Positions 182 to 29,585 of a DNA stretch of 44,969 nucleotides are shown here, piece by piece. The position numbers and the translations under genes were made by a program. The notes beneath the pieces were generated by a model. It was not told the DNA's origin. It was given only the letters and a program-made list of their open reading frames with translations, and did no database searches. The DNA is taken from assembly GCA_902799185.1 (NCBI GenBank), contig CADBZO010000002.1, positions 1-44,969 of the forward strand, given 5' to 3'. The DNA comes from an uncultured Bacteroidales bacterium. GTDB taxonomy: Bacteria > Bacteroidota > Bacteroidia > Bacteroidales > Paludibacteraceae. Each line of letters starts with the position of its first letter. Positions within the stretch are counted from its first letter, which is position 1.

Positions 182-186
182 GAACC

Positions 187-217
187 GACACCCCCCGACC
201 CCCTCTCAGAGGGGGAG
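187..217. repeat. GC-rich palindromic dispersed element, copy 1
   Basis: These 31 bases are identical to 4983-5013 inside prmC, and an inverted relative lies at 18292-18320 inside uvrD. The core CCCCTCTCAGAGGGG is a near-perfect palindrome. Here it sits just after a stop codon. Confidence 0.75.
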
Positions 218-233
218 GGGAGGATGTTAGACA

Positions 234-302
234 AAAGTAGAAAGACCGCTTCGCTCAAAGTAGAAAGCGAATTCTCAAATCTCAAATCTCAAATGTCAAA
301 TA
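234..302. repeat. AAAGTAGAAAGACCG element followed by TCTCAAA heptamers
   Basis: Bases 234-271 match 23086-23123 with two differences, and part of the element recurs at 19617-19636 in the opposite orientation. It carries two AAAGTAGAAAG blocks around a short CGCTTCG stretch. It is followed at about 272-302 by a 7-bp tandem array (TCTCAAA and variants). The 182-353 gap holds only these repeats and the gapA terminator. Confidence 0.7.
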
Positions 303-337
303 AAAAACCAGACGCCCATTGGACGTCTGGTTTGTTT
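301..337 (-). terminator. Rho-independent terminator of gapA
   Basis: A 10-bp stem AAACCAGACG (305-314) pairs with CGTCTGGTTT (324-333) and is followed on the minus strand by a T-rich tail. It lies 20 bases beyond the gapA stop codon. Confidence 0.85.
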
Positions 338-353
338 CGGATTTACACCCGGA

Positions 354-1421
354 TTAGTGGAGCTCAGCGAGGTACTTGATCGTACGTACCATCTGGCTGG
401 TGTAGCTGTTCTCGTTGTCGTACCAGCTAACTACCTGTACCTGATAGGTGTCCTCGTCGATCTTGGCTACCATGGTCTGGGTAGCGTCGAAGAGCGAACC
501 GAACTTCATACCGATTACATCGCTCGAAACGATCTCGTCCTCGGTGTAACCGAAGCTCTCGGTCTGAGCAGCCTTCATAGCGGCGTTGATACCCTCTTTG
601 GTGATGTCTTTGCCCTTAACGACAGCTACGAGGATCGTAGTCGAACCGGTCGGAGTCGGAACGCGCTGTGCGGAACCGATCAGCTTGCCGTTCAGCTCAG
701 GGATAACGAGACCGATAGCCTTGGCAGCACCGGTGCTGTTCGGAACGATGTTCTGTGCACCTGCACGGCTACGACGGAGGTCACCCTTACGCTGCGGGCC
801 GTCGAGGATCATCTGGTCGCCGGTGTATGCGTGGATGGTGCTCATGATACCGCTCTGGATCGGAGCGTATTTGTGCAGAGCTGCTGCCATCGGAGCGAGG
901 CAGTTGGTCGTACAAGAAGCGGCGGAGATAACGGTATCTGCCGGAGTCAGAGTCTTGTGGTTCACATTGTAAACGATGGTCGGGAGGTCGTTGCCTGCCG
1001 GAGCGGAGATAACCACTTTCTTGGCACCAGCCTCGATGTGAGCGGAAGCTTTAGCCTTGCTGGTGTAGAAACCGGTGCACTCCAGTACAACGTCGATACC
1101 CAGCTCGCCCCACGGCAGCTCAGCTGCGTTCGGCTTAGCGTAGATAGTGATCTCCTTGCCGTCAACCGTGATCGAACCCGGAGTAACAACAGTCTTGCCG
1201 TCCTCAGCGAGAACAGCGTCCTTGTAAGCAACCGTGTGCTTACCCTCGCCGAACTTACCTGCGAAACCACCCTGAGCGGTATCGTATTTGAGAAGGTGTG
1301 CCAACATTTTCGGGCTGGTCAAGTCGTTGATTGCAACAACCTCGTAACCCTCTGCCTCGAACATCTGACGGAACGCCAGACGACCAATACGGCCGAAGCC
1401 GTTAATAGCTACTTTTGTCAT
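354..1421 (-). CDS. gapA: Type I glyceraldehyde-3-phosphate dehydrogenase
   Basis: Cytoplasmic glycolytic enzyme that oxidatively phosphorylates glyceraldehyde-3-phosphate to 1,3-bisphosphoglycerate with NAD. The N-terminal Rossmann motif NGFGRIGR is at residues 7-14. The catalytic Cys170 sits in SAASCTTNC and the partner His197 in [10 protein letters not shown]. At 355 residues it is slightly longer than the usual 330-340, with the extra length around residues 55-85 ([15 protein letters not shown] and following). It has its own promoter upstream and a strong terminator downstream, so it is probably a single-gene transcript. The ATG at 1421 gives a leader of about 55 nt from the predicted promoter. 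Identification is secure. Confidence 0.98.
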
Positions 1422-3654: not shown

Positions 3655-3657
3655 AAA

Positions 3658-3700
3658 ATCTCAAATGTCAATTCTCAATTCTCAATTCTCAATTCTCAAA
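3658..3700. repeat. Heptamer array AATTCTC between rfbC and rfbD
   Basis: Tandem 7-bp units (TCAAATG, then about five AATTCTC units) fill the rfbC-rfbD gap and run into the 3' end of rfbC. The last two sense codons (Glu-Asn) and the TGA stop of rfbC lie within the array. Confidence 0.85.
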
Positions 3701-4243
3701 TGGAGAGACAAAGTCTCTCAACAACGGGTGTTTCTTGTCTTTGTCGCTCAGAATACGCAACTCTTCCGGCACCTGCCAGTCTATCGCCAGGTCGGGATCG
3801 CTCAGCAGAAGCCCTCCGTCCGCCTCGGGGTGGTAGAGGTTGTCGCATTTATAAGTGAAGATAGCCTGATTGCTCAGCACCGAGAAGCCGTGTGCAAACC
3901 CGCGGGGGATGAAGAACTGGCGTTTGTTCTCCTCGCTCAACTCGACGCTGTACCATTGTCCGAAAGTAGGGCTGTCCTTACGCAGATCGACCGCTACGTC
4001 CAGCACTCTGCCTACGGTGCAGCAGACCAGCTTCGCCTGGGTATAGGGCGGGCGCTGGAAATGCAAGCCGCGTACCACGCCGTAGGACGAGCAGGACTGG
4101 TTGTCCTGCACGAAAACGGCATCGATACCCGCCTCGCGGTAGCGTTGCTCATTGTATGTCTCTACGAAATAGCCGCGTGCGTCCTTAAAAACCTGCGGCT
4201 CGATAACCAGAAGTCCCTCAATGGGAGTTTTGATGATATTCAT
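3689..4243 (-). CDS. rfbC: dTDP-4-dehydrorhamnose 3,5-epimerase
   Basis: Epimerises dTDP-4-dehydro-6-deoxy-D-glucose at C3 and C5 to the L-rhamnose precursor used by RfbD. It has 184 residues, a single cupin domain of normal length. Family motifs are VRGLHFQRPPYTQAKL (catalytic His in GLHFQ), GRVLDVAVDLRKDSPTFGQW and IPRGFAHGFSVLS. The reading frame ends in a 7-bp repeat array that supplies the codons for the final Glu-Asn and the TGA, so the original C-terminus may have been replaced or trimmed. A promoter lies about 170 bases upstream, giving a long leader. Confidence 0.97.
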   Translation of the reverse strand: MNIIKTPIEGLLVIEPQVFKDARGYFVETYNEQRYREAGIDAVFVQDNQSCSSYGVVRGLHFQRPPYTQAKLVCCTVGRVLDVAVDLRKDSPTFGQWYSVELSEENKRQFFIPRGFAHGFSVLSNQAIFTYKCDNLYHPEADGGLLLSDPDLAIDWQVPEELRILSDKDKKHPLLRDFVSPFEN

Positions 4244-4263: not shown

Positions 4264-4404
4264 ATAATTTACAATGTACAATTTACAATGTACAAAGGGC
4301 TTTGGAGTTTGGTACAATTTTTTTGAGATACGTACGGACTTCCCGGTTTGTACCAATGTCTTTAGGACGCTTTGTTCATTGTTAATTAATCATTGTTCAT
4401 TGAT
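4264..4404. repeat. Heptamer arrays and an inverted repeat in the rfbC leader
   Basis: Bases 4264-4298 are 7-bp units alternating TTACAAT and GTACAAT. Bases 4374-4404 are another 7-bp series built on TTCATTG and ATCATTG. Between them a perfect 9-bp inverted repeat, TTGGTACAA (4309-4317) with TTGTACCAA (4348-4356), could form a hairpin in the transcript. No gene is seen in 4244-4447. Confidence 0.7.
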
Positions 4405-4447: not shown

Positions 4448-4879
4448 TTATTCGCAATTTTTTATCTCGTCATGCGTAAAACCCCGTTGGAGGAGGAAGC
4501 GGAGTCGTTTGTCCTCGGGGTCGGACATGCGGGAACGGATGAGTGCCCTGAGGTTGCGGAAATAGGCGGTTTCATCGATCATGTCGAGGGCGGAACGGAT
4601 ATCCCGGTCGGGAAGTTGCAGGGCTTGCAGTCCGGCGCGGATCTTGAGCCGTCCCCAGGACTGGTATTCCACCTTGTCATGCACGTAGGATTGACAAAAA
4701 CGGGCATCGTCCAGATAGCCGCCGGCATACAGATTTTCCTCGATGAAACCGGATAAATCAGCGGGTGCGCCCCACTCGTATAACTTCCGCCGGACATCAG
4801 CTGCGCAATGTTCCGCACGGGCACAGTAGCGCTCTGCCTTACTGAGCCATTCGGCCTTCGATAATTCGGTCTTTTCCAT
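4448..4879 (-). CDS. recX: Regulatory protein RecX
   Basis: Probable modulator of RecA filament activity in recombination and SOS induction. It has 143 residues of mainly helical three-helix repeats, as expected. Supporting blocks are KAERYCARAEHCAADVRRKL at the N-terminus, EENLYAGGYLDDARFCQSYV in the middle (the D-D-x-R-F core), and a C-terminal RFLLQRGFTHDEIKN. Its start at 4879 lies 41 bases inside the end of prmC, which argues for translational coupling in a prmC-recX operon. recA is not in the window. Confidence 0.9.
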   Translation of the reverse strand: MEKTELSKAEWLSKAERYCARAEHCAADVRRKLYEWGAPADLSGFIEENLYAGGYLDDARFCQSYVHDKVEYQSWGRLKIRAGLQALQLPDRDIRSALDMIDETAYFRNLRALIRSRMSDPEDKRLRFLLQRGFTHDEIKNCE

Positions 4880-5804
4880 AGATATCTTGGGTGATTCGGA
4901 TGTTCGTATAGCCGGCCTCCGCCATCATGGCAGCCACTTCGGCGGCGTAGGCCTCGTTGATCTCGAAGAAGAGGGAGAGGGGGACACCCCCCGACCCCCT
5001 CTCAGAGGGGGAGAAAGGGATTGGTGATGGGGAGAAGAGTTGCGCAATGCGGCGGTAGAAACGCAGGGGATCGGAGTCCGGGACAAAGAGGGCGGAGGCG
5101 GGCTCATAGTCCAGCACGTTCGGACGCATGTCTTTTTTCTCGCTTTCGCAGATATAGGGCGGGTTGGAGACAATTAAGTTGAAAGTTGAAAGTTGAGAGT
5201 TAATAGTTTCCTCGATTTCATCGGAGAAAATATCCGCTACCCGGAAATCCACATCCACGTGGTTGCGCAGTGCGTTCTCCCGCGCCACGGCGACGGCTTC
5301 CGGAGAGATGTCTATGCCGGTGACCTGCCACTCGGGACGGGCTTTCTTCAACGCAATAGCTATGCAGCCGGTGCCGGTACCGATATCCAGCACCCGGATG
5401 GGGGCATTGGAGAATTGAGAATTGAGAATTGAGAATTGAGAATTCTTATCTCGGCAAGGCCTCGAACGATCGGCTGAAGCCGTATGGAGATTTAAGATTT
5501 GTTCGACCAGTTCGGCGGTTTCGGGACGGGGGATGAGGGTGGCGGGAGTGACTTTGAGGTCCAGGCCATACCACACGGTATGACCGAAAATATACTGAAT
5601 CGGTTCGAAACGCAATAATCTGTCGATGATTTCTTGCGTATGTGCAAAATTTTTTGTATCTTTGCACCCGAATTGCAATTCCGTGCGGCAGAGACCGGTG
5701 ATTTCTTCGGCTATCCACCACGCCAGCGCAAGGGCTTCGTCGGCCGGATAAGCGGAAGCCAATTGGGATTTGATAGTTGATATTTGATAGTTGATATCTG
5801 ACAT
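4839..5804 (-). CDS. prmC: Release factor glutamine methyltransferase PrmC, with repeat-derived insertions
   Basis: Methylates the Gln of the GGQ motif in RF1 and RF2 using S-adenosylmethionine. The SAM-binding motif is VLDIGTGTGCIAIAL, and the catalytic NPPY is in LIVSNPPYI. Upstream, QYIFGHTVWYGLDLKV and LIPRPETAELVEQIL are characteristic. At 321 residues it is about 40 longer than usual. Four stretches coincide with dispersed repeats: DINYQISTIKSQL at the start, KNSQFSILNSQFSN before the SAM motif, INSQLSTFN just before NPPY, and SPSPIPFSPSERGSGGVP near the C-terminus. The frame stays open through all of them, so a functional protein is likely. The ATG at 5804 lies about 15 nt after the predicted transcription start. 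Confidence 0.95.
   Translation of the reverse strand: MSDINYQISTIKSQLASAYPADEALALAWWIAEEITGLCRTELQFGCKDTKNFAHTQEIIDRLLRFEPIQYIFGHTVWYGLDLKVTPATLIPRPETAELVEQILNLHTASADRSRPCRDKNSQFSILNSQFSNAPIRVLDIGTGTGCIAIALKKARPEWQVTGIDISPEAVAVARENALRNHVDVDFRVADIFSDEIEETINSQLSTFNLIVSNPPYICESEKKDMRPNVLDYEPASALFVPDSDPLRFYRRIAQLFSPSPIPFSPSERGSGGVPLSLFFEINEAYAAEVAAMMAEAGYTNIRITQDIYGKDRIIEGRMAQ
4979..5030. repeat. GC-rich palindromic element inside prmC
   Basis: Bases 4983-5013 are identical to 187-217. On the coding strand the element reads SPSERGSGGVP and is in frame. The core CCCCTCTGAGAGGGG is palindromic. Confidence 0.8.
5173..5206. repeat. Heptamer array AGTTGAA inside prmC
   Basis: Tandem 7-bp units AGTTGAA, AGTTGAA, AGTTGAG, AGTTAAT on the plus strand. 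On the coding strand they read INSQLSTFN, directly before the catalytic LIVSNPPY. Confidence 0.8.
5410..5445. repeat. Heptamer array AATTCTC inside prmC
   Basis: About five tandem copies of the 7-bp unit (GAGAATT on the plus strand). The coding strand reads NSQFSILNSQFS: seven codons per three units, stop-free in every frame in this orientation. Confidence 0.9.
5769..5799. repeat. Heptamer array at the 5' end of prmC
   Basis: Tandem 7-bp units GATAGTT/GATATTT on the plus strand, read on the coding strand as DINYQISTIK immediately after the start Met-Ser. Confidence 0.85.
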
Positions 5805-5863: not shown

Positions 5864-6913
5864 ATGAATTACGAGAAATATATAGCGCGTTGTATCGAGC
5901 TTGCCCGCCGGGGCGAGTACTACGTAGCGCCGAACCCGATGGTAGGGGCGGTGCTGGTTCATGAGCAAAAGGACGGTGTACAAGATACAAGGGAAACCGT
6001 TGTGGCGGAGGGGTGGCACGAACGATACGGAGAGGGACATGCGGAAGTCAATTGTTTCCGTGCTGCCGAAAAGAATGTACGATATACCAAGGATTTTTAC
6101 AAGGATTGTACGCTGTTCGTCTCGCTGGAGCCGTGCAGCCACTACGGCAAGACACCCCCGTGTGCGAAACTGATCATTGAGAAAGGCGTGGGGCGCGTAG
6201 TGGTAGGTATGTCGGATCCGAATCCGTTGGTAGCGGGCAAGGGGGTACAGATGCTCCGTGATGCCGGTATCGAAGTGGTGGTAGGCGTGCTGGAGAAAGA
6301 ATGCCGTGAGCTGAACAAGCGTTTTCTCTGTCTCCATGAGAAAAAACGGCCGTATGTGATCCTGAAATGGGCGCAGACGGCAGACGGATTTGTTGATGTA
6401 CGAAGGGACAATGTACAACGTACAAAGGGAGAGCACCTGCAAGGCGCCCTGGCTATTTCTACACCTGCTACCAAAGCACTGGTACACAAGATGCGGGCGG
6501 AGAACATGGCCATCATGGTAGGTACGAGAACTGTGCTGCTGGACAACCCGCGGTTGCTGAACACCCATTGGGAAGGGCGTAACCCCGTCCGGGTGACGGT
6601 GGACCGGCACGGCGTGATACCGGCCGACGCACGGATTTTCTCCGATGAAACCGAGACAATCGTCTATCGGGAGCGCACCGACTGGCCGTTTATCCTCTCG
6701 GATCTGGCGGAGAGGGGAATCCACTCGATCCTGGTGGAAGGAGGGCCCACCTTGTTAAACCATATCTTAGAGACCGGTATCTGGGACGAGATACACGTGG
6801 AGGTGGCGCCGGAACTGACCATCACAGAAGGCGTAGCGGCACCCTCCGTGGCGTTGCCGGAGGAGTACGAGAGCGTGGACGGACACCGGTTATACACGCT
6901 TTATCACGGGTAG
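5864..6913 (+). CDS. ribD: Bifunctional riboflavin biosynthesis deaminase/reductase RibD
   Basis: Catalyses two riboflavin pathway steps: deamination of the pyrimidine intermediate from GTP, then NADPH reduction of its ribosyl side chain. The N-terminal deaminase domain has the zinc ligands in HAEVNCF and in LEPCSHYGKTPPC. The C-terminal reductase domain begins near RPYVILKWAQTADG and contains GIHSILVEGGPTLLN. At 349 residues it has normal length. A short repeat-like stretch reading RRDNVQRTKGEHL lies in a loop just after the start of the reductase domain. It is divergent from prmC; no FMN riboswitch was seen upstream. Confidence 0.96.
   Translation: MNYEKYIARCIELARRGEYYVAPNPMVGAVLVHEQKDGVQDTRETVVAEGWHERYGEGHAEVNCFRAAEKNVRYTKDFYKDCTLFVSLEPCSHYGKTPPCAKLIIEKGVGRVVVGMSDPNPLVAGKGVQMLRDAGIEVVVGVLEKECRELNKRFLCLHEKKRPYVILKWAQTADGFVDVRRDNVQRTKGEHLQGALAISTPATKALVHKMRAENMAIMVGTRTVLLDNPRLLNTHWEGRNPVRVTVDRHGVIPADARIFSDETETIVYRERTDWPFILSDLAERGIHSILVEGGPTLLNHILETGIWDEIHVEVAPELTITEGVAAPSVALPEEYESVDGHRLYTLYHG
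6398..6430. repeat. Heptamer-type repeat inside ribD
   Basis: A GTACGAA-GGGACAA-TGTACAA-CGTACAA-style series with 7-bp period, related to the GTACAAT arrays at 4264-4298. It codes for a loop between the two RibD domains. Confidence 0.6.
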
Positions 6914-8615: not shown

Positions 8616-10226
8616 ATGCAAGTAGAGTTAGTTTTATTGGTATTATCGCTGTTGTTTTTTGTCAGCATTTTTGCAGATAAGATAGGGTACAAGTATGGTG
8701 TCCCGGCTCTGCTGCTGTTTCTGATAGTAGGTATGCTGTTCGGTTCGCACGGTCTGGGAGCCGTGTGGGGCGGTTCGGGAATGGAGATAGAGATAGGTTC
8801 CGCCCAGGCTATCAGTACCCTGGCAATGTGTATCATCCTGTTCACCGGCGGTATGGAGACGAAGCTGAGCGACATCAAATCGGTGCTGGCACCGGGTGTG
8901 ACGCTGGCAACGATAGGCGTGCTTGTGACGTGCGTTATCACGGGTGTGATTATCTATTACATCTTTGGTCTGTTGAGTGCCATCACGTCTATCTCCATCT
9001 GGATGGCGCTGCTGATGGCGGCTACGATGAGCAGTACGGACAGCGCGAGTGTGTTCTCTATCCTGCGAACGAACGGCATAGGACTGAAGCACAACCTGAG
9101 GCCTCTACTGGAACTGGAGTCCGGCGCCAACGACCCGATGGCGTATGTGCTGACGACGACCCTGATCAGCGTTGTAGTGGGTTTGAATAAAGCCGCTACG
9201 GGCGGTGCGGAGGTGGCGGCACTGCCGATAGTCCAGACGATTGTCGTGCAGCTGGTGATGGGGGCGGTACTGGGTATGGCATTCGGTAACGGGCTGGTGA
9301 TGCTGATGCGGCGCGTCAAACTGGGCAACGAAGCCCTCTATCCGATCATGGTGCTGACAGCCTGTATCTTTATCTTCTCGGTGACCTATTACCTGCAAGG
9401 CAATACGTATCTGGCAGTATATGTGGGCGGTCTGATTATCGGCAACAGCAAGTTCGCCCGCAAACGTCAGACGAAATCGTTCTTCAACGGTCTGACATGG
9501 CTCAGTCAGCTGGTGATGTTCCTGATGCTGGGGCTGATGGTGCGTCCGGCTGATTTCCTGGACTACCATGTGTGGCTGCCGTGTCTGATCATCAGTATCG
9601 TGATGGTGCTTATCTCACGTCCGGTGGCGGTTTATCTGTGTATGCTGCCTTTCCGCCAGTACCGCCAGCGGGACAAACTGATGCTGAGTTGGGTGGGACT
9701 GAAAGGGGCGGTGCCGATTATCTTCGCCATCATGTGCAAAGCCAGCGGCGTGCCGGCAGCAGATATGATTTTCAATATTGTGTTCCTCTGCACCATCGTG
9801 TCCCTGTTGGTACAAGGCACCACGCTGACTTATGTAGCCACCAAACTGGATCTGGCTACCCAACCTCAGGAGGCGCGTTCGCTGGAGTATTTCGATATAG
9901 ACCTGCCGGACGAGATACAGTCGTCTGCACGCGAGATAGAAGTGTCCGAGCAGATGCTGGAGAAAGGCAACACCCTGCGTAACATCCAGCTTCCGCCCCA
10001 TACACTGGTAGTGATGGTGCGCCGCGACGAAGATTTCTTCGTGCCTACGGGCGTGAGCGAGTTGCAGAAAGGTGACCAGCTTCTCGTCATCAGTGACCAG
10101 GACGCGGAGGCCAGCTACAAGCAGATGACCGATGCCGCGGAGGAGGAGGCGCAGTGGCGCGCCGATATGCGTGCAAGGGCACGCGAGCGGTGGAACAAGG
10201 CTACGGCGTGGATGCACAGGAAGTGA
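8616..10226 (+). CDS. Potassium/proton antiporter of the CPA1 (NhaP2/CvrA) type
   Basis: Integral inner-membrane cation/proton antiporter of 536 residues. Around twelve hydrophobic segments fill residues 1-390, with family blocks STDSASVFSILR and LELESGANDPMAYVL that carry the conserved ion-binding Asp. The cytosolic tail has a TrkA-C-like regulatory domain at about 410-490 (LPPHTLVVMVRRDEDFFVP and GDQLLVIS), which places it with NhaP2-type K+/H+ exchangers. A charged helix ends the protein. Ion choice is inferred from the domain arrangement. Confidence 0.9.
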   Translation: MQVELVLLVLSLLFFVSIFADKIGYKYGVPALLLFLIVGMLFGSHGLGAVWGGSGMEIEIGSAQAISTLAMCIILFTGGMETKLSDIKSVLAPGVTLATIGVLVTCVITGVIIYYIFGLLSAITSISIWMALLMAATMSSTDSASVFSILRTNGIGLKHNLRPLLELESGANDPMAYVLTTTLISVVVGLNKAATGGAEVAALPIVQTIVVQLVMGAVLGMAFGNGLVMLMRRVKLGNEALYPIMVLTACIFIFSVTYYLQGNTYLAVYVGGLIIGNSKFARKRQTKSFFNGLTWLSQLVMFLMLGLMVRPADFLDYHVWLPCLIISIVMVLISRPVAVYLCMLPFRQYRQRDKLMLSWVGLKGAVPIIFAIMCKASGVPAADMIFNIVFLCTIVSLLVQGTTLTYVATKLDLATQPQEARSLEYFDIDLPDEIQSSAREIEVSEQMLEKGNTLRNIQLPPHTLVVMVRRDEDFFVPTGVSELQKGDQLLVISDQDAEASYKQMTDAAEEEAQWRADMRARARERWNKATAWMHRK

Positions 10227-10227
10227 T

Positions 10228-10271
10228 TTGACATTTGATATTTGAGATTTGATATTTGACATTTGATATTT
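10228..10271. repeat. Heptamer array ATTTGAT upstream of the epimerase gene
   Basis: Six to seven tandem 7-bp units (ATTTGAC, ATTTGAT, ATTTGAG) fill almost the whole 49-bp gap between the antiporter stop and the next ATG. Confidence 0.9.
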
Positions 10272-10275: not shown

Positions 10276-11817
10276 ATGAAAAAGACGATTTTCCTGACCG
10301 GCGCCACGGGTACGATGGGGTATGCCGGTATGACAGAGATATTACGGTACCCCGACCGGTATGAACTGCGAGTCCTGGCGCGGCCGAGTAAGAAAAACAA
10401 AGAGCTGCTGGCTCCGCTGACAGCCCGGTACGCGGCACTGACCGTTCTATGGGGTGACCTGACCTCCTACGAGGACGTGCTGCGGGGCGTGACGGGAGCT
10501 GACATTGTGCTGCACGTAGGCGGGATGGTGTCGCCGCAGGCGGACTACCGGCCTAAAGCCACGCTGCGCACGAACATCACCGCCGCGGAGAATATCACGA
10601 AAGCGGTGCTGGCGCAACCGGAGGAGCAACAGCCGAAAGTGGTGTATATCGGTTCGGTCGCCCAGATGGGCGATCGCCGCGAGCCGCTCCACTGGGGCCG
10701 TGCGGGGGATCCGATATGTGTCTCGGCGTACGACCACTACGGTCTGACCAAGGCGGCCGCGGAACGCATCATCACCGACTCGGGTATCAAGAACTGGGTA
10801 TCGCTCCGCCAGTCGGGTATCCTCTATCCGGCTATCCTGAAGAACTACGACCCGATCATGTTCCATGTGCCTGTCCGCGGTGTGCTGGAATGGGCTACCG
10901 TAGAGGACAGCGGCCGGCTGTTGGAGCGTGTCTGCCGCGACGAGGTGCCCGAGGAGTTCTGGCGGAACTACTATAACATCGGTTCCGGCGAGGAGTACAG
11001 GCTGTCGAACTACGAGTTTGAAGTGCTGCTGCTGGATGCTATCGGCTGCCCGCGACCGGAGAAGATCTTCAACGCCAACTGGTTCACTACCCGTAATTTC
11101 CATGGCATGTGGTATATCGACGGGGACAAGCTGGAGAACTATCTCCATTTCCGCGCCAATGTGCCGGTGAAGGACTATTTCCGCCAGATGGCCCAAGCCA
11201 AGTCGCTGCCTTTGGGGATTAAGTTCGCTGCCAAGACCCATATTGCCAAACTCTTTCCGCACTGCGTGAAGGCCGCCATGTGGTTTATGGCGAATAGCAA
11301 GGAGCACGGCACGCAATGGTGGATCAAGCAATGTACAGAGGGACCAAGTACAAAGGACAAAGAGCGTGCGTTCAAGCGTGTAAACGCTTATTATGGCTCT
11401 CTGGAGGCGTACCGGGCTATCCCCGACTGGGAGCATATGGATCTGAGCCATCCGAGCCGTCAGGCTGTGCTGCTGGACCATGGTTATGATGAGAGTAAAG
11501 ACATAGACAGTCTCACGGATGCGGAGTTACAGCAGGCTGCGGCTTTCCGCGGCGGCAGGTATCTGGGGAACGACATGTGGGAGGACGCCGAAGGACGGAC
11601 GTTCAAAGCCTCGCGCCGCCTCATCCTTCTTGGCGGTCACTGGAGTCCGTACGACATGCCTTATCCGTATGAAGGGCAGCAGGAGGCCATGCGCCCGTGG
11701 CACTGGGACAAAGTAGCCAAACAGAATCCCTTCTTCGCCCAACTATGGGCACCACTGCATGAGGCGGATGAGGATAATATCTATGGAGCAGAAATCTTTA
11801 ACGGTTGGGAGAGATAA
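10276..11817 (+). CDS. NAD-dependent epimerase/dehydratase-type protein with long C-terminal extension
   Basis: 513 residues. Residues 1 to about 320 form an extended short-chain dehydrogenase: GATGTMGYAG near the N-terminus and YGLTK as the catalytic YxxxK, with an upstream Ser in YIGSVAQMG. The substrate is unknown. The last 190 residues are unusual: helical, Trp-rich and ending in GGRYLGNDMWEDAEG and LILLGGHWSPYD, which look like a treble-clef zinc domain that has lost its cysteines (a visual inference). A repeat-like QCTEGPSTKDKERAF sits between the parts. Its stop is directly followed by the helicase ATG. Confidence 0.75.
   Translation: MKKTIFLTGATGTMGYAGMTEILRYPDRYELRVLARPSKKNKELLAPLTARYAALTVLWGDLTSYEDVLRGVTGADIVLHVGGMVSPQADYRPKATLRTNITAAENITKAVLAQPEEQQPKVVYIGSVAQMGDRREPLHWGRAGDPICVSAYDHYGLTKAAAERIITDSGIKNWVSLRQSGILYPAILKNYDPIMFHVPVRGVLEWATVEDSGRLLERVCRDEVPEEFWRNYYNIGSGEEYRLSNYEFEVLLLDAIGCPRPEKIFNANWFTTRNFHGMWYIDGDKLENYLHFRANVPVKDYFRQMAQAKSLPLGIKFAAKTHIAKLFPHCVKAAMWFMANSKEHGTQWWIKQCTEGPSTKDKERAFKRVNAYYGSLEAYRAIPDWEHMDLSHPSRQAVLLDHGYDESKDIDSLTDAELQQAAAFRGGRYLGNDMWEDAEGRTFKASRRLILLGGHWSPYDMPYPYEGQQEAMRPWHWDKVAKQNPFFAQLWAPLHEADEDNIYGAEIFNGWER
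11328..11362. repeat. Heptamer-type repeat inside the epimerase gene
   Basis: A 7-bp-period series (GTACAGA, GGGACCA, AGTACAA, AGGACAA) reading QCTEGPSTKDKERA, similar to the stretches in ribD and in the esterase gene (RDNGQSTKDKDYV). Confidence 0.6.
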
Positions 11818-13059
11818 ATGTATTTTGACGAATTAGCATTATCAGACGAAGTATTAGACGCACTGTGGGACATGCACTTTGACGAGTGTACCCCGGTGCA
11901 GGAGAAGACGATACCTGTGATCCTGGACCGCCGGGACGTGATCTCGTGTGCCCAGACGGGTACGGGCAAGACCGCCGCGTATATATTACCCCTGTTGACC
12001 AATCTGGCATATGACGACCATGACCCCGACAAACTGAACGCTATCATCATGGCGCCTACGCGTGAGCTGGCGCAGCAGATAGACCAGCAGATGGAGGGAT
12101 TCGGGTTCTACGTGCCGTTCTCGTCCGTAGCTATCTACGGCGGCAAGGACAACGGCGCATGGGGCAACCAGGTGAGCGGTTTGCAGAAAGGGGCGGATAT
12201 AGTCATTGCCACCCCCGGACGGCTTTTGAGCCAGATGAATATCTACGATGTGGATTTCTCCGGCGTGAAATATTTTATTTTGGACGAGGCGGACAGGATG
12301 CTTGACATGGGATTCTACGACGATATCATGACCATCGTGCGCAAGCTGCCCAAGGACCGCCAGACCATCATGTTCTCCGCTACCATGCCGCCTAAGATCC
12401 GTCAGATGGCGAAGGCGATCATGCACAACCCGGTGGAGGTGCAGATAGCTGTCTCCCGTCCGCCGGAGACGATCCGCCAGATGAGCGCACGCCTCTTCGA
12501 GGCACAGAAACCCGGGTTCGTGCAACTGGCGCTGCGTGGCAGAAACCTCAAGAAAGTGATAGTCTTCGCCGGCAAGAAACAGAAGGTGAAGGACCTTACG
12601 CGCACGCTGCGTACCTTAAAGATTGATGCGCGCGCGATGCACTCCGACCTGGAACAGAACGAACGGGACCAGGTAATGCTCGATTTCCGGAACGGTAAGG
12701 TGGACGTACTGGTAGCTACCGACGTCGTATCCCGCGGTATCGACGTGACGGATGTGCCGCTGGTAATCAACTACGACGTACCGCACGACCCTGAGGACTA
12801 TGTCCACCGTATAGGCCGTACGGCGCGAGCGGAGAACAGCGGCGAGGCAATCACCCTCGTCTCCCCCGAAGACGCACGCTACTGGCGGCGGATAGAGCAG
12901 TTCCTCAAGAAAACGATAGAACGCCTGCCACTCCCGGAGGCCCTGGGAGAAGGACCGCAAGAGAATGACTATTCCACCCGTCCTGCCCGTCAGAACAACC
13001 ACCGGCGGCCCTTCCGTAGCAGCAAAAAGAAAAAGAATACGAATCAGCAAAAATCATAA
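11818..13059 (+). CDS. DEAD-box ATP-dependent RNA helicase
   Basis: RNA-unwinding ATPase, probably in ribosome assembly or mRNA turnover. It shows all core motifs in order: Q motif near TPVQEKTIP, Walker A AQTGTGKT (residues 45-52), PTRELAQQ, LDEADRMLDMGF, FSATMPP, ATDVVSRGIDVTDV and HRIGRTAR. At 413 residues it has a short C-terminal tail ending in a basic stretch (RPFRSSKKKKN), common in RhlE-like members. The ATG abuts the epimerase stop (TAAATG), so coupled translation is likely. Confidence 0.96.
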   Translation: MYFDELALSDEVLDALWDMHFDECTPVQEKTIPVILDRRDVISCAQTGTGKTAAYILPLLTNLAYDDHDPDKLNAIIMAPTRELAQQIDQQMEGFGFYVPFSSVAIYGGKDNGAWGNQVSGLQKGADIVIATPGRLLSQMNIYDVDFSGVKYFILDEADRMLDMGFYDDIMTIVRKLPKDRQTIMFSATMPPKIRQMAKAIMHNPVEVQIAVSRPPETIRQMSARLFEAQKPGFVQLALRGRNLKKVIVFAGKKQKVKDLTRTLRTLKIDARAMHSDLEQNERDQVMLDFRNGKVDVLVATDVVSRGIDVTDVPLVINYDVPHDPEDYVHRIGRTARAENSGEAITLVSPEDARYWRRIEQFLKKTIERLPLPEALGEGPQENDYSTRPARQNNHRRPFRSSKKKKNTNQQKS

Positions 13060-13072
13060 ATCATCAATCATC

Positions 13073-13876
13073 ATGTCCAATCCATTTTCTCTCGAAGGCA
13101 AGAATGCCTGGGTCACCGGTGCCTGCTATGGCATAGGTTTCGCTATTGCGAAAGCGTTTGCACAAGCCGGTGCAAGTAATATCATCTTTAACGCCCGCAG
13201 TCAGGAGGCGATTGACAAGGCGCAGGAAGCCTACCGCGCGGAGGGTATCACGAACGCCCACGGCTATGTATGCGACGTGACGGACGAGACAGCCGTCAAA
13301 GCGCTGGTGGAGCAGATCCATGCAGAAGTGGGCGCTATCCATATCCTGGTCAACAACGCCGGTATCATCAAGCGTATCCCGATGCACGAGATGAAACGCG
13401 AGGAGTTTCAGCAGGTGATAGACACCGACCTGGTAGCCCCGTATATTGTTTCCGCAGCCGTACTGCCGGAGATGATGGAGCGCCGCGAAGGAAAAATCAT
13501 CAATATTTGCTCGATGATGAGCGAACTGGGGCGCGAAACAGTCTCCGCGTACGCTGCTGCGAAAGGAGGACTGAAGATGCTGACGCGCAATATTTGCTCG
13601 GAGTACGGCGAGTATAACATCCAGTGCAACGGTCTGGGACCGGGGTATATCGCTACGCCGCAGACGGCACCGCTGCGCGAACCGCAGGCGGATGGCAGCC
13701 GTCATCCGTTCGATGCGTTCATATGCGCCAAGACGCCTGCCGGACGATGGCTGGAGCCGGATGAGTTAGGGGCACCCGCCGTCTTCCTGGCCAGCCATGC
13801 GAGCGATGCCGTCAACGGACAGATTCTTTATGTGGACGGAGGTATATTGGCCTATATCGGGAAACAACCAAAATAG
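13073..13876 (+). CDS. Gluconate 5-dehydrogenase (SDR family)
   Basis: Short-chain dehydrogenase of 267 residues that probably interconverts gluconate and 5-ketogluconate, or acts on a related uronate-pathway keto sugar. Features: cofactor motif TGACYGIGFAIA, NNAGIIKR, catalytic YAAAK in SAYAAAKGGLKM, and a family-specific C-terminus (FICAKTPAGRW and YVDGGILAYIGKQP) that closely matches the Bacteroides gluconate 5-dehydrogenases. The frame is open 36 codons further upstream into the helicase gene, but the ATG at 13073 gives the canonical N-terminus MSNPFSLEGKNAWVTG. The DUF4861 gene follows 7 bases later. Confidence 0.9.
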   Translation: MSNPFSLEGKNAWVTGACYGIGFAIAKAFAQAGASNIIFNARSQEAIDKAQEAYRAEGITNAHGYVCDVTDETAVKALVEQIHAEVGAIHILVNNAGIIKRIPMHEMKREEFQQVIDTDLVAPYIVSAAVLPEMMERREGKIINICSMMSELGRETVSAYAAAKGGLKMLTRNICSEYGEYNIQCNGLGPGYIATPQTAPLREPQADGSRHPFDAFICAKTPAGRWLEPDELGAPAVFLASHASDAVNGQILYVDGGILAYIGKQPK

Positions 13877-19085: not shown

Positions 19086-19615
19086 AAGGTGATGACTATT
19101 GTTGCGAGAATGACCCACACGGGGTTAACTCCTCCGAGCCAGATGAGCAGCGCTGCGGCTAATGAGACCAGGAGCGGAAGATAATTTTGAATTTTTAATT
19201 TTGAATTTTTAATTTTAAGTGCGGATTTTGCCATCTTCACCAGCGGTGCGGCAATCAGCGCTACCACCGCCGGACGGATACCTTTGAAGGCGGCCTCTAC
19301 CGCCGGCAGTTCTTTCCATTCGCTGAAGACCATGGCGATAGCCAGAATGATGAGGAACGACGGCAGTACGGCTCCCAGCACCGCCCCGCATACGCCACGC
19401 CAACCGCCTATACGCCAGCCTATGAAGATAGCCGAGTTGACGGCGATGAGACCCGGTGCTGCCTGCGCCAGGGCGATCATGTTGAGAAACTCCTCCTCGT
19501 CAATCCACCCCCGCCGGTCTACCACCTCCCGCTGGATAAGCGGCAGCATGGCATAGCCTCCACCCAAGGTGAAGGTGCCGATCTTCAGATATGTCCAGAA
19601 AAGCTGAAAAAACAT
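19046..19615 (-). CDS. chrA: Chromate transporter (CHR family), first half-size subunit
   Basis: Membrane protein of 189 residues, one CHR domain with about six hydrophobic segments. Motifs: FWTYLKIGTFTLGGGYAMLP, RGWIDEEEFLNMIALAQAAP and GLIAVNSAIFIGWRIGG. A charged loop reading ALKIKNSKLKIQNYL, just before the last hydrophobic segments, is encoded by a 7-bp repeat array. It starts 17 bases after udk, and that spacer contains a small hairpin from another dispersed repeat. It should function with the overlapping downstream CHR protein. Confidence 0.9.
   Translation of the reverse strand: MFFQLFWTYLKIGTFTLGGGYAMLPLIQREVVDRRGWIDEEEFLNMIALAQAAPGLIAVNSAIFIGWRIGGWRGVCGAVLGAVLPSFLIILAIAMVFSEWKELPAVEAAFKGIRPAVVALIAAPLVKMAKSALKIKNSKLKIQNYLPLLVSLAAALLIWLGGVNPVWVILATIVITLCSIYLSLYHSSK
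19182..19217. repeat. Heptamer array TTGAATT/TTTAATT inside chrA
   Basis: Tandem 7-bp units alternating TTGAATT and TTTAATT on the plus strand; read in frame on the coding strand as LKIKNSKLKIQN in a loop between membrane segments. Confidence 0.85.
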
Positions 19616-23230: not shown

Positions 23231-24577
23231 TTAGTTCAGCCGCTTGCCGGTTACTTTCAGGTCTCCCAGTTGGAGGTATTTCTTGCCTTGCGGCTTGCCG
23301 TTGGAGTCATACCACGGCAGGATACGCAGGTGGAGCGTCTGTCCGGCGGGAACGAGGATCGGTTGGTCCAGACGGATGAGGATCTCTTTGTTTTTTCGCA
23401 GCGCCGTATTCTCATAGATAGTAGTCACGCCGCTGAACGCCTCGCCGAAGCCGTAGTTGATATGGATATTCATGCCTTCGCCGCCTACGGCTTTGACAGG
23501 AAGGGTGATTGTCTCGATGACGAGGCCTTTCTTCTTCTCTGCGGCGATGGTATATTCGATATAGCGGTTGGCTACCTCGTCTATCTCTCCTGCCGGCCAT
23601 AGACCGCCTGTGGCAATATAGCCTTTCTTCCCGAGCTCCATATTCTGTAAATTGTGAATTGTAAATTGTGAATCGAACGGCGTTCCCTTGGCGGCGAAGG
23701 CGGCTTTTTTGCCGGCGTCCTCTATTTTCTGCGCATAGGCGGTGTACTGCTCTTTGGTGGGGAAGAGGGTCCATGCTTGCAGTTCGGCGAGCTCCGGAGA
23801 CTGGCTGAGGAGTTCGTAGGCGAGCGAAGCGACAGCCATACCGCCGGCGGCGGAGGTATGCGTCTTGTCGCCGCAGTTGAAATAGTTAGCCATGCAGAAC
23901 TCCCGGCCGGCTTGCTCGAAAGCCTCCCGGCTCCGCGCGGTCATGTCCAGAAACGGCACGCTCATCTCTTCCGCTACTTCGCGCATGCAGCGTACATAGT
24001 CTTTGTCCTTCGTACTTTGTCCATTGTCCCTTTGTAACTTGTGTTGTCCTTCGTCATTGATCTTGCCGTCCTTTCCGAAATATGCGCGGCAGATAGGTGA
24101 CATTAGAACAGGCGTCACCCCCATCTCCCGTGCTTCACGGATATACCGGCGGAGGTAAGCCTTATAGGTGGTGTTGGGCTCCGTACCGCGCATGTCAGTG
24201 AGTGTATCTTTGCCTTCGGCGCGCAACTGCGCGTTCTCTACATACACATCCTCGCCCTTGCATTTCTCGTCGTTATGGGCGAACTGGATGATGAGGTAGT
24301 CGCCGGCGTGCATCTGACTTTTGACGGATGGCCAGAGGTTGTCTGTCTCGTAGAACGTACGCGTGCTGGCACCGCTCTTGCCGCGGTTGTTGACCGTCAC
24401 CGAGTCGGCGTTGAAGAACGCCTGCAGATACATTCCCCAGCCGCGTTTGGGCGTTGCAGCAGGTTTGTACTCGCTCATGGTGCTGTCTCCGATGGTGTGA
24501 ACTTTACGCGGTGCGGCGGTAAGCGGCAAAGCCATCAAGGACAATGTACAAAGGAAGAAAAAATTGTGTTTTGACAT
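23231..24577 (-). CDS. SGNH-hydrolase, rhamnogalacturonan acetylesterase-like
   Basis: Secreted carbohydrate esterase of 448 residues that probably removes acetyl groups from pectic rhamnogalacturonan (CE12-like). Signal peptide MSKHNFFFLCTLSLMALPLTAA. Catalytic blocks: IGDSTMSEY (Ser32), block II NRGKSGAST, block III IIQFAHND, and the Asp/His block GDKTHTSAAGG. A C-terminal beta-rich region of about 150 residues follows the esterase fold. Two loop stretches are repeat-derived: RDNGQSTKDKDYV and SQFTIHNLQNMEL. The start at 24577 is chosen for the signal peptide. It follows the unrecognised small gene by 14 bases. Confidence 0.85.
   Translation of the reverse strand: MSKHNFFFLCTLSLMALPLTAAPRKVHTIGDSTMSEYKPAATPKRGWGMYLQAFFNADSVTVNNRGKSGASTRTFYETDNLWPSVKSQMHAGDYLIIQFAHNDEKCKGEDVYVENAQLRAEGKDTLTDMRGTEPNTTYKAYLRRYIREAREMGVTPVLMSPICRAYFGKDGKINDEGQHKLQRDNGQSTKDKDYVRCMREVAEEMSVPFLDMTARSREAFEQAGREFCMANYFNCGDKTHTSAAGGMAVASLAYELLSQSPELAELQAWTLFPTKEQYTAYAQKIEDAGKKAAFAAKGTPFDSQFTIHNLQNMELGKKGYIATGGLWPAGEIDEVANRYIEYTIAAEKKKGLVIETITLPVKAVGGEGMNIHINYGFGEAFSGVTTIYENTALRKNKEILIRLDQPILVPAGQTLHLRILPWYDSNGKPQGKKYLQLGDLKVTGKRLN
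23646..23673. repeat. Heptamer array inside the esterase gene
   Basis: 7-bp units AATTGTG and AATTGTA on the plus strand, read on the coding strand as SQFTIHNLQN between the esterase core and its C-terminal region. Confidence 0.8.
23997..24048. repeat. Second heptamer-type repeat inside the esterase gene
   Basis: A CTTTGTC/CATTGTC series with 7-bp period (CTTTGTC, CTTCGTA, CTTTGTC, CATTGTC). The coding strand reads a charged loop ending in NGQSTKDKDY. Confidence 0.65.
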
Positions 24578-24999: not shown

Positions 25000-25010
25000 A
25001 CGTAGGCTAC

Positions 25011-26751: not shown

Positions 26752-26754
26752 AGA

Positions 26755-27060: not shown

Positions 27061-27090
27061 ACGTGTATTTGTGCTTAATGTTCAAAATTC

Positions 27091-27125
27091 TGCGCAAAGG
27101 TACAACTTTTTGCGCATATATGCAA
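27091..27125 (-). promoter_or_regulatory. Promoter and possible operator of hipBA
   Basis: Minus strand: TTG (27123-27125) extended as TTGCATATA, 20 bases, TACCTTTG (27095-27102). Two TGCGCA palindromes at 27091-27096 and 27111-27116 overlap the promoter and are spaced 20 bases start to start; candidate HipB sites. Confidence 0.8.
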
Positions 27126-27167
27126 ACATTTAAGCGAAAAAATGTGATTAGAGAGTGTTTTTTTGAG

Positions 27168-27660
27168 ATATGCAAGAGGGAGAGGGGATTTTTTCGGTTT
27201 TTTCTGGAAAATCCGGAAGATCAGGAGCGCGAAGGCTATACAGGAAAATCAGGAGCGCGAAGGCTATACCGGATGTCGGGATTCAATCCCGACGCAATGG
27301 ACAAAGTATTCGCCGCTCTGACGTGCGGCGCACCCGACAAAGAGAGGCCGGCATCCGATGCCGGGGAAAAAAGAAAGGGGCAAAAGAAAGGGGCAAAAGA
27401 AAGGGGCGAAAGAAAGGAATCCCGCTCGCGGAACTCGCGGGCACAGGACACCGGGGGCGACTATTCGGCAACAGAGATGCCGGGCACAGGGCACCGGGGG
27501 CGACTATTCGGCAACAGAGATGCCGGGCACAGGACACCGGGGGTGACTATTCGGCAACAGAGATGCCGAACACAGGACCCTAAGGGCGACTATTCGGCAA
27601 CGGAGATGCCGAACACAGGACACCGGGGCGACTATTCGGCAACGGAGATGCCGGGCACAG
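27168..27660. repeat. Mosaic hairpin-rich repeat, copy 2 (upstream of hipB)
   Basis: Same order as copy 1 at 25107-25408, with hairpins 1-3 identical in sequence. It is longer because three tandem tracts are expanded or altered: a 28-bp unit, a 13-bp purine-rich unit (GAAAGGGGCAAAA, about 3.5 copies near 27370-27418), and the 43-bp array. No convincing gene lies in 27061-27684. Confidence 0.9.
27441..27654. repeat. Five tandem 42-43-bp units
   Basis: Units start at 27441, 27484, 27527, 27570 and 27613. Each reads GCACAGGACACCGGGGGCGA and then CTATTCGGCAACAGAGATGCCGG with few changes. CGGCA/TGCCG forms a small hairpin in each. Units are contiguous with no spacers. Copy 1 of the mosaic repeat has only one full unit. 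Confidence 0.93.
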
Positions 27661-27684
27661 CATGCCAGAAGCAAAAATGCAAAA

Positions 27685-28707
27685 TTATAGCAACACGCGG
27701 TTGAACTCTTTGGGAACAGGGGACTCGAAGCGGACTTTCTTCTCTGTCACGGGGTGGATGAACTCCAGCACCTTGGCATGTAGGCAGAGGCGGTCAATAG
27801 GGGACGACTCATTACCGTGGCCGTACTTGCGGTCGCCGACGACGGGGCAGCCCTTGGAAGCAAGATGCACGCGGATTTGGTTGGTGCGGCCGGTCTCGAG
27901 ATGCAATTCCACGAGGGAATAAGAAACCCCTCCCGCAGGGAGTTCTACGGACGGCCACCGGCTGTCCGATCGAGCAGAGCTCTTCACCCGCACAAGGGAG
28001 GAGAAGTGTTTGCTGCCGGGTTCCCTCCCTTGAGGGGAGGGTTGGGTTGGGGTTGTTGAGGTTTTCAGCACCTTGTAATTGGTGATGGCGATGTCGCCGC
28101 CGTCATCGACGGGGGAGGAATAGACGACGGCATTGCGTTTGTCTTCGGTGAGCCAGGTGGTGATCTTGCCTTCGCGGGGTTCGAGGACTCCTTCGGCAAG
28201 GGCTATATAGGTACGGTCGGTGACGAGTTCGCGCCAGTAGGTCCGCATATAATGCTGTAGCTCCTCGGAACGGGCGAAGACGAGCAGTCCGGAGGTCTCA
28301 CGGTCGAGTCGGTGCACGACGTATATGTTCGCACGCGCGTTCTGTTTTTTTACGTACGCGCGTAGGATGGACATGACGGTTGTCTCGCGGCTGCCGGGGG
28401 TGGTAGCTACGGTAAGGAGTCCGGGCTGTTTGTTGACGACGATGAGGTCATCGTCCTCATAGACGATCTTGAGTTTAGGGTGGGTGAGTTGGGCGTTTCC
28501 GCGTCCGGAAGAGACGGTGACGGTGTCGCCCGGTTTGAGGGCGAAGTCATGCCTTGTCTGAATGGCAGCGCCCACTTTGACGCGGCGCTGGCCGAGCAAC
28601 TGTTTGACGGATGATTTGGCCATGCCACCCATCTTGGCGATGAGGAAATCCATTAACTGCGCGGGTTCAGCGACTTTTAATACGGTGTCTTGTTTTCGTT
28701 TGATCAT
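27685..28707 (-). CDS. RluA-family pseudouridine synthase
   Basis: Converts uridine to pseudouridine in rRNA or tRNA; the exact site is unknown. 340 residues. The N-terminal S4-like RNA-binding region is about 15-75. The catalytic motif HRLDRETSGLLVF carries the Asp nucleophile, and GRTNQIRVHLASKGCPVVGD is the second family block. A roughly 45-residue insertion (from KTSTTPTQPSPQGREPGS onward) breaks the catalytic domain before YSLVELHLETG and includes a GC palindrome. The ATG at 28707 (MIKRKQDTVLK) is preferred to an upstream one at 28749. Confidence 0.93.
   Translation of the reverse strand: MIKRKQDTVLKVAEPAQLMDFLIAKMGGMAKSSVKQLLGQRRVKVGAAIQTRHDFALKPGDTVTVSSGRGNAQLTHPKLKIVYEDDDLIVVNKQPGLLTVATTPGSRETTVMSILRAYVKKQNARANIYVVHRLDRETSGLLVFARSEELQHYMRTYWRELVTDRTYIALAEGVLEPREGKITTWLTEDKRNAVVYSSPVDDGGDIAITNYKVLKTSTTPTQPSPQGREPGSKHFSSLVRVKSSARSDSRWPSVELPAGGVSYSLVELHLETGRTNQIRVHLASKGCPVVGDRKYGHGNESSPIDRLCLHAKVLEFIHPVTEKKVRFESPVPKEFNRVLL
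28010..28060. repeat. GC palindrome inside the RluA-family gene
   Basis: On the coding strand CCCTCCCCTCAAGGGAGGG (28023-28041) reads as PSPQGR in frame; related to the element in pnuC. Confidence 0.7.
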
Positions 28708-28761
28708 AAGGAAACTCTTGTCTCGGCATGTATGCCGAGGGTTAAACAAAATAGTTGCTCG

Positions 28762-29538
28762 TTATTCATTACAAATGCGTTTGAGCCAGCCGTAGTTTTC
28801 GGGTCTGGTGGCTTTGATCCACGCGATGCCAGCCATGGAGTTGATGACCAGGAAGAACGTGAAGAGGACAATAGAGAAGATATTGCCGACAATAATGAAT
28901 AATCCTATACCGGCAATGCTGTATATAAACCAATAGATCCAGGAGTCCGTTTTACGGTAAATGAGCCAGTAGTTAGCCAGGAAAGAGGAAGAGATGAGGA
29001 GACCGTTGAGGAGTAACTGAGAAGCTCCCTCTCCTTGGGAGAGGGTAGGGGTGAGGTGTGTCATTATCAGGAAGTCGCCGGCGGTGATGGCGATGAGTAG
29101 CGCGACAGACAGAATAAGGCGGGGTGTGTCAAGGAACTTGGGTTCAAAGGATGCCCCGCCGTCGTCTTTCGACCGGCTCCATTTGTAAATCGACATCATC
29201 TGGAAGGGGACGAAGACAAAGAAATAGAGGAAGGTGCTGTCAAACTGTCCCTGGAGCAGAAACTGTATGCCCAAAAGGACAGACATGATTATTCCGGCGT
29301 AGAATCCGGTGTAGTTTTTCGGGTCCCGTATAGTCAGTATATACGCCACGCCGATGACGGAGGCGGGAATACCGACAAGCCAGGCGGGGTCGTGCCACTT
29401 CAATAATTGAGAATTGAGAATTGAGAATTGAGAATTAAGAATCCATTCTGCAAGCCAGAGGAGACCCATAAGAGCTCCGAAAAGGATGATAGAGATGAGG
29501 GTGTTGCGGCCGAGGGCGCGCCATAAGATGCTTTGCAT
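28762..29538 (-). CDS. PnuC-like nicotinamide riboside transporter
   Basis: Membrane protein of 258 residues with seven or eight hydrophobic segments. The segment ANYWLIYRKTDSWIYWFIYS, then FFLVINSMAGIAWIKA, fits the PnuC pattern of a Lys/Asp/Trp-rich loop before the last helices. This suggests vitamin B3 ribonucleoside uptake for NAD synthesis. Two loops are repeat-derived: ILNSQFSILNSQLLKW early, and LTPTLSQGEGASQ later. The gene ends 54 bases before the RluA-family start. PnuC assignment rests on overall shape and the last helices. Confidence 0.7.
   Translation of the reverse strand: MQSILWRALGRNTLISIILFGALMGLLWLAEWILNSQFSILNSQLLKWHDPAWLVGIPASVIGVAYILTIRDPKNYTGFYAGIIMSVLLGIQFLLQGQFDSTFLYFFVFVPFQMMSIYKWSRSKDDGGASFEPKFLDTPRLILSVALLIAITAGDFLIMTHLTPTLSQGEGASQLLLNGLLISSSFLANYWLIYRKTDSWIYWFIYSIAGIGLFIIVGNIFSIVLFTFFLVINSMAGIAWIKATRPENYGWLKRICNE
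29020..29055. repeat. GC palindrome inside the pnuC-like gene
   Basis: CCCTCTCC-TT-G-GGAGAGGG at 29027-29045. On the coding strand it reads LTPTLSQGEGAS, in frame, in a loop between membrane segments. Confidence 0.75.
29403..29441. repeat. Heptamer array AATTCTC inside the pnuC-like gene
   Basis: About five 7-bp units, identical in type and coding orientation to those in prmC (5410-5445). It reads ILNSQFSILNSQ just after the first membrane segment. Confidence 0.9.
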
Positions 29539-29560
29539 GGTGATTGAAATTAAAAAATTA

Positions 29561-29585
29561 AAATTACGAATTACGAATTACGAAT
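29561..29585. repeat. Heptamer array AATTACG upstream of the pnuC-like gene
   Basis: Three tandem AATTACG units preceded by AT-rich sequence, in the gap between the L31 terminator and the pnuC-like start. No promoter of the usual form was found here. Confidence 0.8.

Follow-up and report, generated by a model that had tools for sequence, protein, structure and literature searches.

The DNA analysed here (the window) covers positions 1–44,969 of contig 2 in a 2.43-Mb genome (55 contigs, 86.7% complete), and its host is a Bacteroidales bacterium of a large rumen and gut genus near Paludibacteraceae, not a cyanobacterium. Genes of the window were assigned to PrmC, RibD, RmlC, RmlD, GAPDH, two ChrA proteins, a GDSL esterase, PnuC and an NAD-epimerase, and both between and within these genes lie short tandem arrays with a 7-bp period, as well as copies of a discrete element of about 34 bp, named hereafter the GTAC element. 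On balance, we think that the arrays represent a genus-wide population of very small dispersed heptad repeats, which are copied between sites and between species and filtered by what the host proteins tolerate.

A preliminary description of the window had listed twelve period-7 arrays, and for all twelve the best period among those compared (3–12) was indeed 7, with 71–97% matching positions at lag 7. Outside genes or at their borders, these are an intergenic (A)ATCTCAA array (270..302), an AATTCTC/AAATCTC array in the space separating the minus-strand genes rmlC and rmlD (3656..3701, overlapping the end of rmlC), an AATTTAC/AATGTAC array immediately upstream of rmlC (4264..4298), an intergenic TTGTTCA-type array that is the weakest of the twelve (4374..4404; 71% at lag 7), an ATTTGA[CTG] array filling the gap between a Na+/H+ antiporter gene and an epimerase gene (10226..10271), and an AATTACG array immediately upstream of pnuC (29561..29585). 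Within prmC (4839..5804, minus strand) alone there are three arrays plus a GC-rich palindromic element, and all four keep the reading frame. That is, five copies of AATTCTC on the minus strand (5410..5444) read NSQFSILNSQFS at about residues 121–132, a minus-strand AAGTTGA array (5176..5208) reads NSQLSTFN at about residues 199–210, a TTGATAG/TTGATAT array on the same strand (5768..5801) reads DINYQISTI at the N-terminus, and the palindrome CCCCCTCT CAGAGGGGG (4995..5011) accounts, with its flanks, for about residues 261–275. Further minus-strand arrays are found in one chrA gene (AATTTTG/AATTTTT, 19182..19217, reading KIKNSKLKIQNY), in the GDSL esterase gene (TGTAAAT/TGTGAAT, 23646..23673) and in pnuC (AATTCTC, 29403..29442, reading ILNSQFSILNSQL).

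The claim that six conserved genes carry in-frame arrays thus holds for prmC, pnuC, one chrA and the esterase gene, but not for ribD and the epimerase gene. The three features previously described as weaker relatives of the arrays, at 6398, 11328 and 23997, do have 7 as their best period, but only 57–58% of positions match, and they are copies of the discrete GTAC element instead. The copy in ribD (6395..6426, minus strand, in a plus-strand gene) reads DVRRDNVQRTKG and agrees with the element at 30 of 32 positions, that in the epimerase gene (11330..11361, minus strand) has the poorest match with 27 of 32, and the one in the esterase gene (24009..24040, plus strand, in a minus-strand gene) reads KLQRDNGQSTKD and agrees at 28 of 32.

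A strict scan of the window returned 10 arrays at period 7, none at periods 4–6 and 8–10, one at 11, two at 12 and eight at 14, while first-order Markov controls (n = 40) contained none at periods 5–11. With a 28-bp window and an 80% match, 12 arrays were found at period 7, none at 4–6, 8 and 10, and one, one and two at 9, 11 and 12, respectively; the corresponding Markov controls (n = 30, periods 6–8 simulated) were again empty, and TRF concurred with the period-7 calls. The tally was extended to 542 kb of the window genome, where 92 period-7 arrays were counted, as against 0, 0, 2, 5, 18, 3 and 18 at periods 4, 5, 6, 8, 9, 10 and 11. The excess over shuffled controls foreseen in the preliminary description is borne out, as is the sharing of one strict period by different units. 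The 92 arrays comprise 38 unit types. Array length peaks at 27–35 bp. One 18-mer of the AATTCTC type gave 66 overlapping matches in the whole assembly, corresponding to 33 separate arrays, and the reversed control gave none. Using gene calls from an open reading frame and hexamer script made for this analysis rather than a standard annotator, 26 of the 92 arrays lie wholly within genes, 22 at gene edges and 44 in intergenic regions. Array density is 5.8 per 100 kb of called coding DNA vs 47.0 per 100 kb of non-coding DNA.

The comparison set from the genus consisted at first of 36 further genomes and later of up to 178, with over 170 species genomes. Samples of 60–100 kb from nine other species of the genus contained 3–13 period-7 arrays each, and samples of 100, 100 and 80 kb from three other families of the order contained none. 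Of the 247 genomes examined across the order, 90 had three consecutive TCARYTN units, in a very patchy distribution. Many of these genomes were matched by the reversed control as well, which often outnumbered the pattern itself, so that TCARYTN was rejected as the single unit of the order; this implies that other heptamers abound and that the period, not the unit, is what is general. Two possible causes of array formation were also discarded. Loss of mismatch repair does not agree with the presence of MutS1 above its curated cut-off in 57 of 61 genomes, and loss of SbcC was dropped as the pattern of strong matches has no visible link to array density (of 37 genus genomes, 5 matched TIGR00618 at E < 1e-30, as did 8 of 24 others, none of them above the cut-off). 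The sparseness of strong SbcC matches is in itself noteworthy in a genus rich in palindromes.

A Pfam scan of 20 array-bearing genes of the window genome identified mostly core enzymes, one gene being without a match, and gave no indication that surface or modification genes are the preferred hosts. The carriers include chorismate synthase, isoleucyl-tRNA synthetase (IleRS), a SufS-like class V aminotransferase, a MiaB-like radical-SAM/TRAM protein, a GlmS-like SIS protein, a phage-integrase-type recombinase, TrmO, a dihydrouridine synthase, a pseudouridine synthase and PfkB. In chorismate synthase, residues 59–138 occupy the position of 17 residues in a solved relative. The AlphaFold2 model of PrmC (mean pLDDT 83.6) matches Escherichia coli PrmC (2b3t) with a TM-score of 0.84 by target length, and its pLDDT falls below 50 only at residues 110–113, 115–130 and 261–272, which overlap the AATTCTC array and the GC palindrome. 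Since the in-gene units of 7 bp are not a multiple of 3, one may ask whether the arrays are contingency loci that switch genes by 7-bp frameshifts. The carriers include single-copy housekeeping enzymes and the reading frames are kept across species, which makes such phase variation very improbable. As a separate observation, one locus (L213, 13149-14402, minus strand) combines PcrB-like and deaminase domains in one reading frame and has an array near residues 77–88.

The arrays share a unit consensus, TCAAYTN, which scored 812 compared with a mean of 644 and a maximum of 676 in 30 letter-shuffles (the test leaves aside L080, L115, L001-L009, L032, L036-L038 and nine prmC loci from contigs that had been sampled otherwise). 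A general rule of six fixed bases and one free base was rejected, as variation over all arrays was not concentrated in one column (280 observed vs 301 simulated), and such a free base is confined to the TCAA-anchored arrays. In 10 genus samples, the strongly TCAA-like arrays within genes comprised 11 in sense and 1 in antisense orientation, the latter with a TGA stop in its unit, whereas those lying between co-directional genes were divided 5 to 6. At gene edges the ratio was 2 to 8, and the arrays there tend to supply the stop codon. Arrays matching the consensus weakly had little orientation bias (14:11 in genes, 12:10 between co-directional genes). The earlier proposal of selection after insertion, which had been based on the coding orientation of AATTCTC, therefore stands as survivorship, on the evidence of the strongly matching arrays, and the pattern fits the removal of damaging copies rather than directed insertion. 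When a unit of 7 bp has no stop, its heptapeptide is identical in all three frames. This is why a period coprime with 3 would help, as only the orientation, the net length and the place of an array would then matter. The same counts bear on the proposal that the arrays are sites for translation initiation or RNA-protein binding, as put forward for TAACTGA repeats in Beggiatoaceae. Many arrays do lie within about 20 nt of gene starts or stops, and a fixed core with one free base would suit a binding site; we nevertheless regard a regulatory role as quite improbable, considering the lack of orientation bias between co-directional genes, the 26 arrays wholly within genes and the different units at orthologous places.

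In PrmC, PnuC, an RluD-like synthase and RibD, the content of the orthologous loop varies between different repeats, GC-rich palindromic elements and no insert at all. A search with PnuC yielded 80 loci from rumen and gut assemblies, mostly deposited as Bacteroidales or Paludibacteraceae and in one case as Bacteroidia; another, L115, deposited as Synergistales, is 99.6% identical to L054 across 751 bases. Between 'E' and 'LLKW', the PnuC loop of the window contains AATTCTC; near relatives have AATTGTC or CAACTTT there, and other loci GC-rich or short sequences (9 heptamer, 8 GC-rich and 50 short loops among the 67 of 81 loci resolved). For the RluD-like synthase, 61 of 81 loops were resolved with a low period threshold, giving 21 with heptamers of 11 unit types, 1 with an octamer, 10 GC-rich, 24 short and 5 other. 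The RibD loop was classified by eye in 30 homologs, of which the automatic classifier resolved just 7: the GTAC element is present in the window and L261 and decayed in L255, AATGGAC occurs in three homologs, three further heptamer types, two GC-rich inserts and one other insert were seen, and the remaining 18 loops are mostly short. Furthermore, the PrmC linker has 7 heptamer arrays and 1 octamer array among 25 genus sequences. Even at about 90–97% identity between species, the loops differed in 8 of the 10 comparisons in which one or both species had a repeat, although these comparisons are not independent, as the pairs overlap and four species recur.

Two minor features may be mentioned here. 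Octamer arrays with a constant core and two variable bases (such as CGATATNN, AAATGNGA) occur in the 485-525 region of PrmC locus L017 and near 2930-3110 of L044/L046. GC-rich palindromes of the CCCCCTCT CAGAGGGGG type are dispersed in the window, with an intergenic copy (199..220) and a further one at 18293-18309 besides the in-frame copy in prmC; these GC-rich elements, which are separate from the arrays, are palindromic by eye, and related ones occupy the heptamer loops of relatives.

The preliminary description had named relatives with the same loops in unrelated DNA as an outcome that would count against insertion into coding loops. What was found is mixed, with unrelated repeats in several relatives and a short, insert-free loop in others, and these loops thus give the impression of sites on which repeats have landed again and again, not of places that bear the trace of one insertion. 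The alternative, one ancient insertion per loop that has since diverged into different-looking repeats, has been weighed against insertion hotspots for the Rickettsia elements RPE-4/6/7 in PMC3767692. It would explain why the same loop is occupied in many species and why insert length is so uniform in PnuC, but AT-rich heptamers, GC-rich palindromes and short loops alternate at one site even in pairs more than 90% identical, and we consider it unlikely.

The GTAC element, first met as the 3′ part of one RluD-loop insert and recurring elsewhere, recurs as a discrete, nearly identical sequence of about 34 bp at unrelated loci. A 105-base query containing it matched at least 97 of 178 genus genomes (with at most five candidates scored per genome), and the 20 GTAC loci that were read had about 11 different surroundings around the common part. 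With at most two mismatches, the 32-base core occurs at 127 places in total, spread over 31 of the 121 genus genomes compared, while the reversed control gave 0 in every genome. In the gathered DNA 70 of 89 copies lie in genes, although these loci were partly collected by the GTAC search itself; in the window genome, at a threshold of at least 27 of 32 positions, 28 are in genes, 9 between genes and 1 at an edge. The element, none of whose six frames contains a stop, is less depleted from coding DNA (6.2 vs 9.6 per 100 kb) than are the period-7 arrays (Fisher p 2e-4). When the 70 in-gene copies were merged by similarity of their flanks into 51 contexts, 40 of these used one frame ([ND]VQRDDVQCTK-like) and the others 6, 3, 1 and 1, a bias with a p of about 5e-22 compared with an expectation of 1/6. 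Ten of the contexts resemble related C-terminal sorting tails (8 in the favoured frame and 2 in another, by hand count), and without them the bias persists (32 of 41, p about 9e-18). The favoured frame is the most hydrophilic of the six.

A discrete dispersed element of this kind, together with the GC palindromes in the same loops, could be taken to indicate a miniature inverted-repeat (MITE-like) or repetitive extragenic palindromic (REP-like) element moved by a transposase in trans. In a search confined to the REP-type Y1 transposase family PF01797, G027 was the one genome among 37 of the genus with a clear match (E 2.9e-25), and in the others the family was absent or weak (E no better than 2.9e-8). 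The window genome itself gave a match only at E 5.7e-5, in a 375-aa frame, so that no REP-type Y1 transposase of the kind associated with REP/RAYT systems could be recognized there, and mobilization in trans seems to us doubtful. A phage carrier was also rejected, as the GTAC core had no exact match in IMG/VR. Nineteen stretches of viral contigs in that database (L283-L301) do contain a TCAATTCTC array, and in the window genome about 15 tandem GTAC/GGAC-type heptamers lie inside a called 255-aa gene (L120, 16537-16651).

Some inserts are nearly identical between species while the coding DNA around them is not. The GTAC-bearing RluD insert (75–105 bp) has 0.97–1.00 identity across five species, whereas its 385-base flanks have 0.68–0.82 identity upstream and 0.70–0.78 downstream in nine of ten pairs. 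The identity extends about 20 bases upstream past the insert, in the manner of a short conversion tract. Other allele groups have a smaller excess of insert over flank identity, or none. These data are relevant to local replication slippage, in which each array would be made anew and pruned by selection, with shared units reflecting composition or context. In favour of slippage are the many perfect arrays, the 14-bp superperiods, the TCAA arrays in which one position varies as if by mutation, and orthologous arrays that differ by single bases (e.g. L059 vs L065). It does not readily account for an irregular GTAC element at unrelated loci with 0–2 mismatches, for a unit consensus beyond that of letter-shuffled controls, or for inserts common to species with diverged flanks, and we rate it as a possible but less probable origin.

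Dispersal is therefore observed for the GTAC family, and for the AT-rich arrays it is suggested, with local slippage as its main rival. Under the dispersal reading, repeats mostly of about 25–45 bp, whose inner architecture is the 7-bp unit, would be copied to new sites under the guidance of homology or microhomology, by gene conversion or by template switching with another copy as the source, and may do so without a transposase of their own; movement between species could occur by short-tract recombination. Selection would then clear the copies that break proteins, and the survivors within genes would be those that preserve the frame, have no stop in the coding orientation and lie mainly in linkers. 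Neutral or selfish persistence is favoured, and a host function seems unnecessary.

Several observations weigh against this reading. The extension of dispersal from the GTAC family to the TCAAYTN arrays would rest on analogy, and many arrays are perfect, so that copying and local slippage are indistinguishable in them. No empty site among the loci was precise enough at the DNA level to define insertion ends or target duplications. Among 106 TCAA-anchored arrays the base preceding TCAA differs from unit to unit in 23% of units (0.234), compared with 7–11% elsewhere (0.096 and 0.074 at the two other unanchored positions), which neither pure copying nor pure slippage predicts. In the tenth pair of the RluD comparison (L046-L064) the flanks are themselves 0.85 and 0.95 identical, and in L059-L065 the insert has no excess identity (0.95 vs 0.97). 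Of 17 PnuC inserts 15 are 16 aa long, which the divergence of one old insert fits equally well. The N-terminal and 199–210 arrays of PrmC are modelled at pLDDT 76–95 and not as disordered loops. Finally, the frame bias of GTAC exceeds what hydropathy would lead one to expect, since two other, antisense, hydrophilic frames are hardly used; this points either to selection finer than hydropathy or to phase-specific entry. A more tentative and less probable variant would make GTAC a genuine coding mini-element, [ND]VQRDDVQCTK[DEV], that enters genes, or is retained in them, in one phase and orientation. The heptads as a class would then persist because a stop-free unit of 7 bp gives one peptide whatever the frame, and would supply the genus with a frame-blind, constantly exchanged stock of linkers whose turnover outpaces species divergence.

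The nearest known kinds are the Rickettsia palindromic elements (RPEs) and the heptamer repeats of Beggiatoaceae and cyanobacteria, which differ in size, unit and host. To our knowledge, Rickettsia is the main source of known cases in which selfish repeats lie within conserved genes. Short tandemly repeated heptamers (STRR) occur in cyanobacteria, and the present arrays resemble such heptameric simple sequence repeats in having tandem 7-bp units beyond chance; a 2008 paper reportedly dealt with 'very small mobile repeated elements'. A literature search, with subscription literature mostly outside its coverage, returned no paper on such arrays in this bacterial group. According to PMC10969869 and PMC3767692, RPEs are dispersed small repeats that lie in frame within unrelated conserved genes, each encoding a peptide, and Rickettsia orthologs can carry different RPE groups near one site. 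The Bacteroidales repeats likewise sit in frame in unrelated protein-coding genes, but they have a 7-bp period and are mostly 25–45 bp long (the GTAC core being 32 bp), as against about 100–150 bp for the RPEs, which are palindromic.

TAACTGA direct repeats are described by MacGregor (2015) from Beggiatoaceae, cyanobacteria and five Bacteroidetes, with two sets in Paludibacter, near gene starts and stops and sometimes in open reading frames. These also are 7-bp units, and the reversed form, TCAGTTA, conforms to TCARYTN. That system has one unit, is mainly intergenic and has its in-gene copies mostly at protein ends, whereas the Bacteroidales arrays have many units and lie inside core-enzyme domains. 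TAACTGA is absent from the 38 unit types of the 542-kb tally, and the intergenic arrays lack the single orientation, predominantly upstream of gene starts, that characterizes TAACTGA repeats. In Xanthomonas and Nostoc, GGGAATC repeats have a period of 7, a genome-wide distribution and a preferred copy number near four (PMC4692102); these are G-rich and under-represented in coding DNA, whereas the Bacteroidales arrays are AT-rich.

The present case is an example from a free-living lineage in which, between species more than 90% identical, unrelated repeats come to fill the same loops of essential enzymes. It opens to test how tiny repeats spread without an obvious transposase, how far proteins tolerate random linkers and why seven is preferred. 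Moreover, alignments, trees and structure predictions based on such genomes can be led astray by the linker sequences.

Besides the features discussed above, the window contains a putative second insert in pnuC (about 29019-29058, minus strand), which reads LTPTLSQGEG, is GC-rich-like and replaces residues that align in relatives. A short AAATCAT array at a gene edge (13051..13073) is additional to the twelve arrays listed earlier, and other tandem repeats, with units of 11, 28, 13 and 43 bp, are found at 25010-27660.

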